DNA of 64,000 nt from Seleniivibrio sp. (GTDB taxonomy: Bacteria; Chrysiogenota; Deferribacteres; Deferribacterales; Geovibrionaceae), in assembly GCF_021209385.1 (NCBI RefSeq), contig NZ_JAJOIL010000009.1, positions 1 to 64,000 on the forward strand. Reading direction: 5' to 3'. The position numbers were made by a program, and so were the translations under genes. How positions within the stretch are numbered: position 1 is the first letter of the stretch; each line of letters opens with the position of its first letter. This document shows, piece after piece, positions 42,567 to 48,471 of this stretch. The notes below the pieces were generated by a model. It saw only the letters and a program-made list of their open reading frames with translations, was not told the DNA's origin and did not search any database.

Positions 42567-42606
42567 TATTGAAAAGAAAAACCACTTACTATAGGGATGT
42601 TATAAG

Positions 42607-42641
42607 AAAAAAAAGACCGCCGGAAAAATCTGCGGTCTTTT
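42607..42641 (-). terminator. Terminator of the Crp/Fnr-type regulator gene
   Basis: AAAGACCGC (42612-42620) pairs with GCGGTCTTT (42632-42640). The minus strand continues with a run of eight T. Confidence 0.8.
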
Positions 42642-42656
42642 ATATTAAGAATTTTG

Positions 42657-43406
42657 CTAAACGCACTTGAGAACAGGCTTTCCAATAATTTTTTCGTCAT
42701 TCCTGTCAGTATCTTTCCAGTCGTAAAGCCTGTCCAGCAAGTCTTTGCTGATGTATCGGCACCTGTTCTCGTTTTTGTAATAACCTTCATTTTTCAGATC
42801 AAGAAGTATTCTGTTTATAGTAAGCGGTGTTGTATAAACTATCTGCGCTATCTCATAATGAGTTAGTTTGACAGGAAGCTTATACCATCCATCAATGTTA
42901 TCAACCTCGCACCTGACAACAAGCCCTTTGAATAGACACAAAAGTCTGTCTCTCGGCGTGCGGGCAACAATATTGGCAAATCCTTCAAGATCTGATTCCA
43001 TATCATACATAAGGTTATGTATCATAGTCTTGTTGAATGAATTGTTTGAAAACATATAATCCCAGACAACATCATGGGGAACTTCAAGAAGAACACTGTC
43101 GCGCATCACAGTTGTTGAAACAAAACAATCCCTGTTAGATAAAAAAAACGTGTCACCTATCATGGAATAAGGAAGTATGATGCTGATAGCCTTGTCTTTT
43201 GATGTGTTCTGAAGCTGGAAATGCGCGCAGTATTTCTGTACCATTCCGTTTATAAGTAAGCTTAAATAAGGATAAAATTCTTTTCCTACGAATATATTCT
43301 CCCCTTTTTTGTAATTCTTCAATTTCCCGAATTTCATGAAGAATTTTTTTACGGGTTCATCGACCTTTGGTCTTATCCAAGGTATCCCGTAGTATCGAAG
43401 CCTCAT
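42657..43406 (-). CDS. Crp/Fnr-family transcriptional regulator
   Basis: A 249-residue regulator with an N-terminal cyclic-nucleotide-binding-like domain (about 30-150) and a C-terminal HTH_Crp region (LTHYEIAQIVYTTPLTINRILLDLKNEG-like, about 190-220). No clustered N-terminal cysteines for an Fe-S centre are visible, so it is not a canonical Fnr. Start at 43406 has GGAGG seven bases upstream. It is divergent from the flavoprotein-cytochrome operon and is the obvious candidate to control it. Confidence 0.82.
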   Translation of the reverse strand: MRLRYYGIPWIRPKVDEPVKKFFMKFGKLKNYKKGENIFVGKEFYPYLSLLINGMVQKYCAHFQLQNTSKDKAISIILPYSMIGDTFFLSNRDCFVSTTVMRDSVLLEVPHDVVWDYMFSNNSFNKTMIHNLMYDMESDLEGFANIVARTPRDRLLCLFKGLVVRCEVDNIDGWYKLPVKLTHYEIAQIVYTTPLTINRILLDLKNEGYYKNENRCRYISKDLLDRLYDWKDTDRNDEKIIGKPVLKCV

Positions 43407-43504
43407 AATATAACCTCCAAAATGCTCTGCCTGAAAACAAATCGTAACTATATATAGCATAATTCAAAATTCATTTTCAGTTTTAGACTGTGTTTGTATA
43501 TCAC

Positions 43505-43520
43505 CGGATATATATATCCG
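43505..43520. promoter_or_regulatory. 16-bp perfect palindrome in the divergent promoter region
   Basis: CGGATATATATATCCG lies midway between the Crp/Fnr-type regulator and the flavoprotein gene. A dimeric regulator could bind here; it does not match the classical Fnr box. Confidence 0.4.
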
Positions 43521-43619
43521 CCGCGGAAGATGCTCTTATTAATTCATTCTTATATCACATGATACACCAAATCACCGTATCTGATTGTTCGTATACCCAA
43601 AAAAGTTAGACTTGTTTAT

Positions 43620-43639
43620 CAGGCAATGGCAAATGCCTG
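43620..43639 (+). other. Leader hairpin upstream of the flavoprotein gene
   Basis: CAGGCA (43620-43625) pairs with TGCCTG (43634-43639), followed by AAAGCTATTTTTTT. It lies 40 bases before the start codon and may attenuate or stabilise the message. Confidence 0.4.
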
Positions 43640-43679
43640 AAAGCTATTTTTTTGAGGAATTATTCCTAAAGGAGTTGTT

Positions 43680-45188
43680 ATGAAAAAATTTTTTTCAGTT
43701 CTCGCAGTCCTCATTATTTCCGTATGTAACGTTTTTGCCGCGGAAAAAATCTATAATGTGGATGTATGCGTAGTCGGAGCAGGAGCAGGCGGCACGACAG
43801 CGGCTGTTTCCGCACAGGAAGCAGGGCTTAAAACCATCCTGCTTGAAAAAATGCCTTTCACAGGCGGAGCGGGTAATTTCATGGAGGGTTCTTTCGCAGC
43901 GGAAAGCTTTATGCAGAAACAGGCAAAGATACCGCTGACAAAAGAACAGGCATTCAACAATATCATGAAATATCACCACTGGAAAAGCAATGCAGAACTT
44001 ACAAAAGCTTTTGTTGACGAATCATCCAAGACCATACAATGGGTATGGGATCACGGCGTTCACTACAAAGAAGTGAAAAGTGCATTTAAAGACAACCCTC
44101 TTAAAACATGGCACATCTATCCCACAGCAGGCGCTTACTTCATCAGACACATGGTGAACACTTTCCTTGACGAAGGAGGCACCCTTCTCCTTGAAACCCC
44201 CGGTAAACAGCTTCTTTTTGACAAAAACGGCAAAATATCCGGTGTTCTTGCAGAAAACTACAAAGGAGAAACCATTCAGATCAACGCCAAATACGTCGTA
44301 CTGGCAACAGGCGGTTATGCTAACAACATTCCTATGATAGTTCAATACGGCGGACCTGAATCTGTACCTACAGGACCTGACGGACGTATGGGTGACGGTA
44401 TCAAAATGGCTATGAGTGCAGGTGCAGAGCTTGATAACATGGGTCCGCTTGAAGTTAACGGCGCAATGCTCATCTCCCCCGGAGAAGCAATATGCAACGG
44501 CAACAATGCTGAACTTCGTGCAATGTTCCGTCAGTCGCTTCTTTACGTTAACTCCAAAGGTGAACGTTTCTTTAATGAACAGGAAACAATTGACTGGCCT
44601 ATGGCAAGTAACGCTATCGGTCGTCAGGGCAAATACTCATATGTAGTCTTTGATGCAGACACCCTTAAGGAGTTTCAGACAACAGGATATCTTAACCCTT
44701 GCGGTAACTGGATCAAACGCGGACAGGCAATGAAACGTTTTGACGAACTCTTCCCTCAAAACGTTGAAAAAGGTTACGCATTTCAGGGAGCAACACTTGA
44801 AGAAGTGGCAAAAAAAGCAGGAATGGATCCGGAAACCCTGAAAAAAACTGCCGAAGCAATTACTAAAGATGCCGAAACAGGTTATGACGCTCAATTCGGT
44901 AAAGACAAACGCTTTATCCGCGCAGTTGCAAAAGGTCCCTTCTATGTTCTGAAAGGTCAGATACACCACCTTACGACACTTGGCGGTGCAAAAGTCAACG
45001 GTCACCTTCAGGTCATCAACAAAGAAGGTAACATTATTCCTGGGCTTTACGCAATCGGACACGATGCCGGTGGTCTCTACGGCGACTCTTATGACCTTAC
45101 GATCGGTGAAGGTACATCAAGTGCATTTGCCATCAACGGCGGAAGAATGGCAGTTAAAGACATTATCCAAAAATCAAGCAGCAAATAG
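43680..45188 (+). CDS. Periplasmic FAD-dependent reductase, fumarate-reductase-like
   Basis: A 502-residue secreted flavoprotein (signal peptide about 1-20, NVFA/AEK) of the fumarate reductase/flavocytochrome c superfamily. The FAD motif VVGAGAGGTTAA is near residue 32, with LLEKMPFTGG and a C-terminal GLYAIGHDAGGLYG. It lacks its own haem domain; the next gene supplies a tetrahaem cytochrome. Two arginines expected in fumarate reductases are absent: the TRD motif is TID (in NEQETIDWPMA) and the ANRLGGN region is DSYDLTIGEG. The substrate is therefore probably not fumarate but another enoate or unknown acceptor. AAGGAG precedes the start. Confidence 0.85.
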   Translation: MKKFFSVLAVLIISVCNVFAAEKIYNVDVCVVGAGAGGTTAAVSAQEAGLKTILLEKMPFTGGAGNFMEGSFAAESFMQKQAKIPLTKEQAFNNIMKYHHWKSNAELTKAFVDESSKTIQWVWDHGVHYKEVKSAFKDNPLKTWHIYPTAGAYFIRHMVNTFLDEGGTLLLETPGKQLLFDKNGKISGVLAENYKGETIQINAKYVVLATGGYANNIPMIVQYGGPESVPTGPDGRMGDGIKMAMSAGAELDNMGPLEVNGAMLISPGEAICNGNNAELRAMFRQSLLYVNSKGERFFNEQETIDWPMASNAIGRQGKYSYVVFDADTLKEFQTTGYLNPCGNWIKRGQAMKRFDELFPQNVEKGYAFQGATLEEVAKKAGMDPETLKKTAEAITKDAETGYDAQFGKDKRFIRAVAKGPFYVLKGQIHHLTTLGGAKVNGHLQVINKEGNIIPGLYAIGHDAGGLYGDSYDLTIGEGTSSAFAINGGRMAVKDIIQKSSSK

Positions 45189-45205
45189 GCATATCTGGAG
45201 GAATC

Positions 45206-45589
45206 ATGAGAACCAATCTTATTGTGTTAACTATAGCAGCTCTGGCGGCATTATGCCTTAATGCTTTTGCGTCAGAAACATACACATATAACCTGAAAAA
45301 GCATCACGAAGGTGCCGGACTTTCCTGTGCGGATTGTCACAAGGCGGCACAGCCCACTGTTGCGGCAGAAGCCGAAACATGCACAACATGCCACGCAGAT
45401 ATGCGCAAAAGCGGAAAAACAGTTTCCCTGTTTGAAAAACGCACACAGAGAACAATTGAAATGAACCCACATGCAACTCACGCAGGTCCTATTCGCTGTA
45501 CACAGTGCCACAGCGAACATAAAGAATCTAAACTGCTCTGCAACACCGGATGTCACCAACACCACACATGGACAGTTCTGGTTCCTTAA
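45206..45589 (+). CDS. Small periplasmic tetrahaem cytochrome c
   Basis: A 127-residue protein with a signal peptide (about 1-23) and four haem c sites: CADCH (41-45), CTTCH (59-63), CTQCH (98-102) and CNTGCH (112-117), the last with an unusual three-residue spacing. Further histidines provide axial ligands. It resembles the cytochrome domain of flavocytochrome c3 and should deliver electrons to the flavoprotein encoded 17 bases upstream. Confidence 0.88.
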   Translation: MRTNLIVLTIAALAALCLNAFASETYTYNLKKHHEGAGLSCADCHKAAQPTVAAEAETCTTCHADMRKSGKTVSLFEKRTQRTIEMNPHATHAGPIRCTQCHSEHKESKLLCNTGCHQHHTWTVLVP

Positions 45590-45599
45590 TCACCTCATT

Positions 45600-45628
45600 A
45601 TGACCGGAGATTAAAAACCTCCGGTCAT
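45600..45628 (+). other. Intercistronic hairpin before the porin gene
   Basis: A 10-bp stem ATGACCGGAG (45600-45609) with CTCCGGTCAT (45619-45628). No T-run follows, so it probably affects mRNA processing or stability rather than termination. Confidence 0.55.
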
Positions 45629-45653
45629 GTTTAAAAACAAAAAGGACGACAAA

Positions 45654-46886
45654 ATGAAAATATCTTCAGTTTTCACAATATTGCTGTCGCTGTTAATGTG
45701 TTCAACCACATTTGCCGCTGACAGCATACAGGAAGCTTTTGCTCAGGGATCATTAAAAGCGGAGTTACGAACTTTTTATTTTACACGCGACTTTGACGAA
45801 TCCGACACCAGAGAGGATTTCGCAACAGGTACTCTTTTCTATTATAAAACCGCTCCGTTACATGGTCTCAGCGCAGGATTGAGCTTCGCGACATCAAATA
45901 AAGTAACAGACAACGACGACAATGACGTCTACGGGCTATTGGCAAAAAGCGACAGCGGACAACATAAGAACTATTCCAAATTTCAGGAATACTATCTTCA
46001 GGGCGACTGGTTTGATACCAAAATAAAATACGGCGCACAGGAGCTTTACACCCCTTTCGCAAATATACATGACATACGCATGACCCCGAAAACATTCAGA
46101 GGTCTGTCCGTAGTCAATAACAGCATCAAAGGTCTCACTCTGTCAGGTTATTATCTGAACGGATACCGAGGCTGGGCAGATGAAGAATTTACTGACATGA
46201 CAAGCTCGGCAGGCGCAGCAGAAGGAGACGACAGCGGACTTTTCATAGGCGGTATAGGATATGACCTCCCGCTTGAGTACGCAAAGACCAACGCACAGAT
46301 ATGGCAATATCATCTGGACGACGTTGTGAACATGACCTATGCAAAAATGAGCATCTCCAAAAAAATAGGAGACTTTCAATTAAGCTTTAACCCCATGTAT
46401 CTCCGCCAGAACTCCTCTGGCAGCGAATATGCAGGAGATATTGATTCCGTTCAATACGGCTTTAATACCGGTGTTGCTGCCTATGGCGTAAATCTCACCC
46501 TTTATCATGCAAGAACCCGCGACGGAAACGTTTTTGCTCCGTGGGGAGACGAAAAGGTCATCGTTCAGCAGATACTCGCATCTGACAGAAAAGATGAAGA
46601 CGCGTATGCATATAAGCTGGGTTATAACTTCAAAGCTCTCGGCGTCGAAGGTCTTGACGCTTATATCTTCCAGAGCTTCTATGACACACCGGATTCCGGT
46701 TCAAGCGCTTCGTCGGACATTACAGAAACTGACTTCAGTGTTCAATACTCTTTCTCTGAAAAATCATCACTGAAAGGTCTGAGCCTAAGAGCGAGATACG
46801 CAATTGTTGACGAAGACACTGCTGAGGATTTTAACGATTTCAGATTCTATTTGAGATATCAGTTTGCATTTGGCGGTAAACAGTAA
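45654..46886 (+). CDS. Outer membrane porin, OprD-like
   Basis: A 410-residue beta-barrel protein with a signal peptide (about 1-21, STTFA/ADS), alternating amphipathic strands and a C-terminal aromatic-rich strand (FRFYLRYQFAFGG). The N-terminal AFAQGSLKAELRTFYFTRDF is typical of OprD-family porins. It is probably an uptake channel for the substrate of the neighbouring reductase. The ATG at 45654 follows AAGGA. Confidence 0.8.
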   Translation: MKISSVFTILLSLLMCSTTFAADSIQEAFAQGSLKAELRTFYFTRDFDESDTREDFATGTLFYYKTAPLHGLSAGLSFATSNKVTDNDDNDVYGLLAKSDSGQHKNYSKFQEYYLQGDWFDTKIKYGAQELYTPFANIHDIRMTPKTFRGLSVVNNSIKGLTLSGYYLNGYRGWADEEFTDMTSSAGAAEGDDSGLFIGGIGYDLPLEYAKTNAQIWQYHLDDVVNMTYAKMSISKKIGDFQLSFNPMYLRQNSSGSEYAGDIDSVQYGFNTGVAAYGVNLTLYHARTRDGNVFAPWGDEKVIVQQILASDRKDEDAYAYKLGYNFKALGVEGLDAYIFQSFYDTPDSGSSASSDITETDFSVQYSFSEKSSLKGLSLRARYAIVDEDTAEDFNDFRFYLRYQFAFGGKQ

Positions 46887-46912
46887 AACCTCCTTTTACT
46901 TTTCTAACCAGA

Positions 46913-46945
46913 AAGACCGGATACTTTTTAACAGTGTCCGGTCTT
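46913..46945 (+). other. Intercistronic hairpin between porin and MFS genes
   Basis: A 13-bp stem from AAGACCGGATACT (46913-46925) with AGTGTCCGGTCTT (46933-46945), including one G-T pair. It shares the GACCGGA core with the hairpin before the porin gene. An A-run rather than T-run follows. Confidence 0.5.
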
Positions 46946-46967
46946 AAAAAACTGATCCGGAGCTAAT

Positions 46968-48158
46968 ATGAAAAACAGACAGTTATTTCAAAAACTTTTC
47001 ATTCTGAATTTCACACTTACTCTGGGTTTCGGCATGTTCGATCCTTTCTTTTCAGTATATATAGTCAGTCTCGGCATAAAAGCCTCACTGCTTGGTATCC
47101 CTGCTGGCATATATGCACTTTCAAAATTTTTTTTGAGTGTCCCGATGGGGAGACTTTCCGACAGATTTCAACTTAAATATATAGCTGTTTCCGCAGTGGG
47201 GCTGTACTGCATTACGGCATTTGGTTATATGAACACGGGAAATATAGCAACTATATGCCTACTAAAACTTGTTCAGGGAGCAGCAGCTTCTATTCTGCGT
47301 CCAGTTATACTCGTATACCTTAATGAATTATCTGACAAAGACAGAATAGCATCAGTTAACGGAACATTTGATATATCATTCTATGGAGCCTTAGGTATAG
47401 GTCCTTTCATCGGAGGGCTGATAAGAGAGTATGCTGGTTTTCATGGTCTGATATCTACCATGTTGGTACTATACATAACATCTTTTATATTTGTCATAAA
47501 ACTGCCTGAAAGGTACTGCAAAAAATTAAAAGATGCAGAAAAGAAGAGATCTGCAACCATCACTCCGACTATAGCTGCATTAATGATATTTATCTTCGGC
47601 AGAGCCTGTAATATATCAGCTGCATGCATATTCATACCTTTATTCGCAGAAAAGAAATTACAGCTTGGAAGTTTACAGTCTGGCTTGATCATGGGGGCAT
47701 CAACCATCTCCATGGTATTCTGCCTGAAGCTATTTGGCAGAATGGGTGACAGATCGTCAAGAATATCGCTTATAACTGCCGGCGGAGTGGTCTCCTCTGT
47801 TTTTCTTGCTATGATACCTCTCTGTGGCGACTTCATGCAGATTTTTAATCTTTATGCCGCTATAGGTGTTTTCAGCGCAATGTCTCAGCCATCAAGCGTA
47901 GCCTTGCTGCTAAACCAAAGCAAAAAATGCGGCATAGGGAATTCCGCAGGTTATTTCAACCTTTCCCTTAATTCGGGTATGACCGCAGGACCAGTCATAG
48001 GTGCATTTATTCTGTCTGGTACAGATATCAATACTGTCTTTATTGCGGTTGGCGCGATAGGAATGATAACCTCTGTGGTTTTTATGGTTCTGTCATCTAT
48101 ACAATCTTCAAACTTTGTGGTCTATTTTAAAAAACTCGTCAAATACACTTCGGATTGA
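46968..48158 (+). CDS. MFS transporter
   Basis: A 396-residue protein with about 12 membrane helices and the MFS loop motif GRLSDRFQLKYI after the second helix, repeated as GRMGDRSSRISL in the second half. It probably moves the substrate or product of the reductase module across the inner membrane. Its stop codon lies at the beginning of a 76-bp direct repeat, and its codon use looks more AT-rich than that of neighbours, hinting at separate origin. Confidence 0.82.
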   Translation: MKNRQLFQKLFILNFTLTLGFGMFDPFFSVYIVSLGIKASLLGIPAGIYALSKFFLSVPMGRLSDRFQLKYIAVSAVGLYCITAFGYMNTGNIATICLLKLVQGAAASILRPVILVYLNELSDKDRIASVNGTFDISFYGALGIGPFIGGLIREYAGFHGLISTMLVLYITSFIFVIKLPERYCKKLKDAEKKRSATITPTIAALMIFIFGRACNISAACIFIPLFAEKKLQLGSLQSGLIMGASTISMVFCLKLFGRMGDRSSRISLITAGGVVSSVFLAMIPLCGDFMQIFNLYAAIGVFSAMSQPSSVALLLNQSKKCGIGNSAGYFNLSLNSGMTAGPVIGAFILSGTDINTVFIAVGAIGMITSVVFMVLSSIQSSNFVVYFKKLVKYTSD

Positions 48159-48227
48159 AGCCGAAACAAGTTCGCCTAATCCTGCATACTGCAAATTAAA
48201 AAAGGGACACAAGCCAAAAGGCTTATG
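48152..48227 (+). repeat. Direct repeat copy 1 (76 bp)
   Basis: Begins GGATTGAAGCCGAAACAAG and ends AAGCCAAAAGGCTTATG; nearly identical to 48308-48383 (two mismatches seen). It includes the last codons of the MFS gene and a broken version of the terminator hairpin found intact in copy 2. Confidence 0.85.
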
Positions 48228-48307
48228 ACACTCAGTAGAGACATACGTCACCGTTAACTGTGGCTGCTCCTGAAAAACTTGGCAAACAATTCAACCTGAT
48301 GATGACA

Positions 48308-48383
48308 GGATTGAAGCCGAAACAAGTTCGCCTAATCCTGTATCCTGCAAATTAAAAAAGGGACACAAGCCAAAAGGCTTATG
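48308..48383 (+). repeat. Direct repeat copy 2 (76 bp)
   Basis: Second copy, 156 bases to the right of the first. It lies just past the 3' end of the minus-strand tRNA-Pro and runs into an intact terminator. It is preceded by GATGACAGGATT (48301-48312), the same twelve bases as the 3' end of the tRNA gene (48402-48413). Confidence 0.85.
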
Positions 48384-48393
48384 TCCCTTTTTT
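48353..48393. terminator. Bidirectional terminator between MFS and tRNA-Pro
   Basis: GGGACACAAGCC and GGCTTATGTCCC form a long stem with an AAAA loop, flanked by an A-run on the left and a T-run on the right. It can end both the plus-strand operon and the minus-strand tRNA. Confidence 0.85.
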
Positions 48394-48397
48394 CAAA

Positions 48398-48471
48398 TCG
48401 GGATGACAGGATTTGAACCTGCGACCACACCCACCCCAAGGGTGTACGCTACCAGTCTGCGCTACATCCCG
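48398..48471 (-). tRNA. tRNA-Pro (anticodon GGG)
   Basis: On the minus strand the acceptor stem is CGGGATG/CATCCCG with discriminator A. The D-arm contains AGCGCAGACTGGTAGCG, the anticodon loop is TTGGGGT (anticodon GGG), and the T-arm contains GGTTCAAATCC. The 3' CCA is not encoded, so it depends on a CCA-adding enzyme such as the one at 12-15 kb. Confidence 0.95.

Follow-up and report, generated by a model that had tools for sequence, protein, structure and literature searches.

A putative anaerobic-respiration cassette with a periplasmic flavoprotein of the VprA clade at a tRNA-Pro site in Seleniivibrio sp.

The window analysed here (64,000 nucleotides, positions 1 to 64,000 of contig NZ_JAJOIL010000009.1) belongs to the genome of a Deferribacterota bacterium, Seleniivibrio sp. 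(2.90 Mb in 42 contigs). According to the open reading frames and family profiles, genes for a regulator, a flavoprotein, a cytochrome, an OprD porin and an MFS transporter are present and intact at 43407-48158; 43407 is the first base of the regulator gene, which extends leftward from there. A preceding sequence-only reading had described a divergent Crp/Fnr-type regulator and these four further genes, and all five were recovered. The features of the locus are as follows.

42581-48308, no strand: inserted segment, absent from congener G002 (comparison of flanks)
42657-43407, minus strand: Crp/Fnr-family regulator (Pfam HTH_Crp_2; alignment of 15 regulators; orthologues in L083 and L084)
43497-43512, no strand: candidate operator 1, palindrome TATATCACCGGATATA (kept in L083; its arms differ by one base)
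43551-43566, no strand: candidate operator 2, TATATCACATGATACA (54 bp from operator 1; spacing identical in L083)
43680-45188, plus strand: secreted FAD flavoprotein, by sequence a VprA-class ene-reductase (profiles, alignments, tree)
45206-45589, plus strand: small periplasmic cytochrome c (Cytochrom_c3_2; three CXXCH and one CX3CH)
45627-46886, plus strand: OprD/Occ-family outer-membrane channel (family profile E 5e-37; solved relatives)
46968-48158, plus strand: MFS transporter (family profile E 4e-43; solved relatives)
48152-48232, no strand: 81-bp direct repeat (95%) of 48308-48388 in the tRNA-Pro flank, at the right end of the insert
48398-48471, minus strand: tRNA-Pro(GGG), an insertion landmark common to congeners (tRNA search and congener comparison)

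Counts of sigma-70 promoters and terminators were no different from those in shuffled sequence, and a PADLOC match of 21 bits was dismissed as meaningless.

The flavoprotein belongs to the FAD_binding_2 family (E 4e-48) and possesses a Sec-type leader (MKKFFSVLAVLIISVCNVFA). Among proteins of known structure, UrdA and Fcc3 (FccA) of Shewanella match it best; it shares with them the fold, the FAD domain, the periplasmic location and, presumably, the supply of electrons from a cytochrome (Fcc3) or another carrier. In these enzymes the arginine of the TRD motif is the proton donor (Arg402 in Fcc3, Arg411 in UrdA), and a second arginine (Arg560 in UrdA) binds the carboxylate (PMC10882135). The window protein possesses neither: Ile303 is aligned to Fcc3 Arg402 (HMMER pairwise and multiple alignments) and Tyr471 to Fcc3 Arg544 of the ANRLGGN motif (HMMER pairwise alignments with UrdA and Fcc3, and multiple alignments). 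The absence of both arginines, which the sequence-only reading had claimed, is thus borne out; the alignment with fumarate and urocanate reductases that it had named as a check was carried out, and no shifted arginine near the TRD or ANR place was found in any alignment. Furthermore, His504 and the Glu378/Arg381 proton relay of Fcc3 are not conserved. Counting back from the GG pair puts a threonine at the His504 place, and the histidines 429-430, considered as the Fcc3 histidine pair, were discarded, since they lie two residues off register and the clade does not conserve them. The protein also differs from Fcc3/FccA and UrdA in its clade and in having its cytochrome as a separate protein. Both residues, Ile303 and Tyr471, recur unchanged in two orthologues of 83% and 67% identity. 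Comparison with a Denitrovibrio-like orthologue resulted in dN 0.11 and dS 1.42, i.e., purifying selection, so the gene has been maintained rather than decayed. The AlphaFold model is of moderate quality (pLDDT 75) and was used for the fold alone because the active-site loop 468-478 has a pLDDT below 50.

The best named match of the flavoprotein is the VprA profile (NCBIfam NF053717; 337.8 bits, next 202). This value is far below the equivalog cut-off of 600 bits, so that VprA activity cannot be transferred to the flavoprotein; a plasmid-encoded protein of Lactiplantibacillus plantarum passes it with 783.8 bits. Like the window protein, the latter lacks both arginines, and it carries a GDTY motif. 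In a maximum-likelihood tree the flavoprotein and VprA fall into one clade of 32 rows (support 100/98), apart from FccA and UrdA. A tyrosine stands at the Tyr471 place in 29 of 29 aligned clade members and the TRD arginine in none, while E69, H100, W144, N311 and D462 vary little or not at all; fumarate and urocanate reductases differ from the clade at all these five positions and at Y471. Judging from these alignments, the loss of both arginines is a mark of a separate clade including VprA and not private to one protein. VprA and the window protein have in common the GD[ST]Y motif and E69, H100, N311 and Y471. However, VprA has no leader and is seemingly cytoplasmic (L098), and its gene stands alone next to a LysR gene. 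VprA reduces vinylphenols, i.e., compounds without a carboxylate, and its type of site accepts para-hydroxyphenyl alkenes (PMC10295242).

The cytochrome encoded downstream (Cytochrom_c3_2, E 4e-15) had been called tetrahaem; this holds if its CX3CH (CNTGCH) is counted as a fourth haem motif, whereas by the strict CXXCH definition there are three. CX3CH is common at the fourth place in homologous cytochromes, and the homologue in L045 has CXXCH there. Among the small cytochromes of the cassettes described below, the fourth motif is CX3CH in about two thirds, CXXCH in most others and CX4CH in L090. Two NapC/NirT-type matches are present in the host genome. In Edaphovirga cremea (a gammaproteobacterium; L001), the gene for a secreted VprA-class homologue (41-42% identity) adjoins a Crp-type gene, and NrfC/NrfD-type genes (multi-cluster ferredoxin and NrfD) take the place of the cytochrome. 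NrfD-type proteins exchange electrons with quinones; with such a partner, a quinol-fed reductase is therefore the natural reading.

The cassette is one of many in this genome. FAD_binding_2 matches at E <1e-30 number 22 in the host, 3 to 5 in four congeners and 0 to 12 in the other searched genomes. Thirteen host proteins are VprA-class members (1, 0, 0 and 2 in the four congeners; E <1e-60 with the window protein), and with the VprA profile they form a block at 287-386 bits, the next protein scoring 179. A small or seven-haem cytochrome is encoded close to 12 of the 13 genes, an MFS transporter near 11 and an OprD channel near 7, and a Phenol_MetA_deg outer-membrane protein occurs in 3 of the host cassettes (in one together with OprD) as well as in the cassette of one relative. 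The regulators vary: Crp-type in five host cassettes, elsewhere GntR, two-component systems and others (those other than GntR judged by sequence alone). The identical five-gene order was found in G007 (L083; flavoprotein 83% identity); in G006 (L084; 67% identity) no OprD gene lies between the cytochrome and MFS genes. The flavoprotein set at L039-L052 is unusually large for 2.9 Mb. Some gut bacteria reportedly possess large sets of respiratory-type flavoreductases as well, as Little and colleagues are said to have described in 2024, which limits the surprise of the host's set. The host also has haem-bearing flavocytochromes (L041:3704-5449, with intact TRD and ANR motifs, and L044:12105-13994) and Tat-type flavoproteins with cytochromes of their own (L042, L043, L051, L052); the one at L043:2133-4353 has intact arginines and is followed by a seven-haem cytochrome, i.e., the Mrd/Mcc layout. 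Note that the MFS gene of one host cassette (L051:11437-12634) is split into two overlapping frames, possibly by a frameshift or an assembly error, and that a relative of the flavoprotein gene (G007:C1:1644680-1646143) contains an in-frame TAG and may be a pseudogene. A caspase-domain (Peptidase_C14) protein with a leader-like N-terminus is encoded next to a VprA-class gene at L046:7523-8848.

In congener G002, the counterparts of window positions 42580 and 48309 sit 62 bp apart, adjoining tRNA-Pro(GGG); therefore, the entire cassette, from the regulator to the MFS gene, is extra relative to G002. The same interval holds unrelated islands in two other congeners: one of ~36 kb in G003 (L105, L106), with a phage-integrase fragment adjoining the tRNA, and one of ~13 kb in G004 (L107), with genes for a glycyl-radical enzyme, its activase and an ABC transporter. 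Horizontal gain of the cassette at the tRNA-Pro site appears to be the best reading. Alternatively, it could have been lost in the congeners rather than gained in the host, but unlike contents at one tRNA among congeners favour repeated gain. The two copies of the 81-bp direct repeat (48152-48388), 156 bp apart, lie between the end of the MFS gene and tRNA-Pro and are perhaps an insertion scar.

The regulator matches HTH_Crp_2 with 28.2 bits and the cNMP domain with 26.8, slightly under the cut-off; its ATG at 43407 matches the start of the orthologues. FNR-type oxygen sensing was ruled out, as the N-terminal cysteine cluster is absent and an alignment of 15 cassette regulators shows no cysteine kept in common. 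Between the regulator and flavoprotein genes lie two palindromes of the form TATATC-N4-GATATA (TATATCACCGGATATA and TATATCACATGATACA), 54 bp apart; by chance the window should contain none. YATATCACNNGATAYA occurs genome-wide only at these two places. The pair recurs with unchanged 54-bp spacing in L083, which belongs to another genus, and L084 contains one near-copy. L096, which has the Crp gene nearest to that of the window after those of the two orthologues, contains two perfect copies of the general form, 40 bp apart. With one mismatch allowed, the pattern is not rare (23 places genome-wide versus 14 for the reversed control), so that a genome-wide regulon was rejected and the case for operators rests on pairing, position and conservation. 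On these grounds, the paired palindromes are likely operators. CprK of Desulfitobacterium, a Crp-type protein able to sense an organic acceptor directly (PMC2610375), resembles the regulator in family and in belonging to a respiratory operon with an organic acceptor. However, close sequence relation was not found: CprK was not among the named PDB matches, the best of which was Lmo0740 (2e-6), and ligand binding by the window regulator is suggested by analogy only. The candidate operators, the insertion site and the recurrence of the cassette go beyond the sequence-only reading.

Clade membership, active-site residues, gene order, recurrence, and presence or absence at the tRNA site can be read directly from the compared genomes. 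The segment 42581-48308 was, in our view, probably acquired horizontally as a cassette for anaerobic respiration, in which a VprA-clade periplasmic ene-reductase is fed by the cytochrome. The alkene would enter through the OprD-type channel; electrons would pass from the menaquinol pool via a NapC/NirT-type dehydrogenase and the small cytochrome to FAD, and hydride from FAD to the beta carbon of the conjugated alkene, polarised by Tyr471 in place of the arginine clamp. By analogy to CprK and chlorophenols, the Crp-type regulator, sitting on the paired palindromes, might activate the operon upon binding the acceptor. The MFS protein would carry the acceptor or the product over the inner membrane, outward more likely. 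This agrees with the sequence-only reading in the respiratory role, the secreted flavoprotein, the cytochrome electrons, the outer-membrane channel and the view that something other than fumarate is the acceptor. As to the inner-membrane transport of the product that it proposed, the nearest solved relatives of the MFS protein are NorA-type efflux carriers (a weak match), so that export has no lesser claim than uptake of the product. Fumarate is an unlikely substrate. That the acceptor is an aromatic or enone-type alkene is a tentative assignment, a little on the doubtful side of evenly balanced; the preference of OprD/Occ channels for carboxylates fits plain vinylphenols poorly, and no phenolic-acid decarboxylase is encoded in the host genome, so that vinylphenol would need an external source.

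An overlapping reading differs from ours in the carboxylate: a periplasmic reductase of the (hydroxy)cinnamate type with a tyrosine-based site, acting on an alkenoic acid (cinnamate, caffeate or another monocarboxylate) that enters through a carboxylate-type porin. Among the nearest solved relatives of the porin are the vanillate channel OpdK, OpdO and a BenF-like porin, which suggests small and in many cases aromatic anions as its cargo, and the VprA-type site, taking para-hydroxyphenyl alkenes, would be in keeping with such a substrate. However, the flavoprotein offers no arginine for the carboxylate, and the cassette of the 67% orthologue does without OprD at this place; we regard this reading as a serious one, though on balance unlikely. 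The efflux-like MFS protein, together with the cassette's own regulator, might instead suggest a detoxification unit, in which a reactive alkene or enone is reduced in the periplasm and the exporter clears what leaks inward. This seems improbable, since the cytochromes next to 12 of 13 paralogues and the NrfD-type quinol partners in Edaphovirga speak for an energy-linked electron flow.

An anaerobic-respiration cassette with a reductase is also preferred to the oxidative direction, with a periplasmic KSTD-like ketone dehydrogenase passing electrons to the cytochrome. Of the two catalytic tyrosines of the Rhodococcus 3-ketosteroid dehydrogenase KSTD1, Tyr487 and Tyr318, the former does align with Tyr471 (it is residue 507 in the 530-residue crystallised chain, which we take to be native Tyr487, subtracting a 20-residue tag), and the TM-scores of the model are slightly higher for KSTD folds (0.60-0.62) than for Fcc3 (0.55). 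Nevertheless, the most closely related characterised enzyme works as a reductase, no base is available at the Arg402 place with Ile303 there, and the genome is rich in cytochrome-fed fumarate-type paralogues, which renders this direction very improbable. Apart from the tyrosine at the Arg544 place, which KSTD1 and Cgr2 both have, the two differ from the window protein: KSTD1 (20-21% identity in the structural comparison) acts oxidatively in steroid catabolism, and Cgr2 is an Fe-S cardenolide reductase. As the corresponding tyrosine of Cgr2 is dispensable and the neighbouring glycine is not (PMC5953540), the catalytic role of Tyr471 is to be taken as putative.

A fumarate, methacrylate/acrylate or urocanate reductase of known kind with relocated arginines, for which the similar fold and FAD domain and the solved relatives UrdA and Fcc3 could be quoted, is hardly credible, because neither arginine nor His504 is found at or near its place, the flavoprotein lies outside the FccA/UrdA clade, and the host already has the L041 flavocytochrome and the Tat-type L043 protein with intact arginines. 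The methacrylate reductase Mrd/Mcc of Geobacter sulfurreducens AM-1 had come into question through its Deferribacteres homologues (PMC4427408) and is indeed similar in the pairing of genes for a periplasmic flavoprotein and a cytochrome and in horizontal spread; it was rejected on leader type and clade, Mrd being Tat-exported and the window protein Sec-type and of another clade. That Mrd keeps its arginines is judged from its likely homologue L043; in the tree, the window protein falls into a clade separate from the arginine-bearing proteins.

The respiratory cassette with a VprA-clade reductase would link an enzyme class of lactic acid bacteria to anaerobic respiration in the periplasm, where, to our knowledge, the VprA-type class has not been described. 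It also illustrates clearly how a tRNA site can bear a respiratory cassette in one species and lack it in a sister. Furthermore, the 13 natural variants with their regulators and candidate operators in one genome provide material for working out substrates. With some reserve, it can be suggested that Deferribacterota may possess an interchangeable platform for periplasmic respiration, in which arginine-free, tyrosine-based ene-reductases, a class named biochemically so far only from VprA, are swapped among cassettes with differing regulators and outer-membrane channels; each would be fitted to a different natural alkene, and the acceptor of the window cassette would be new to respiration.
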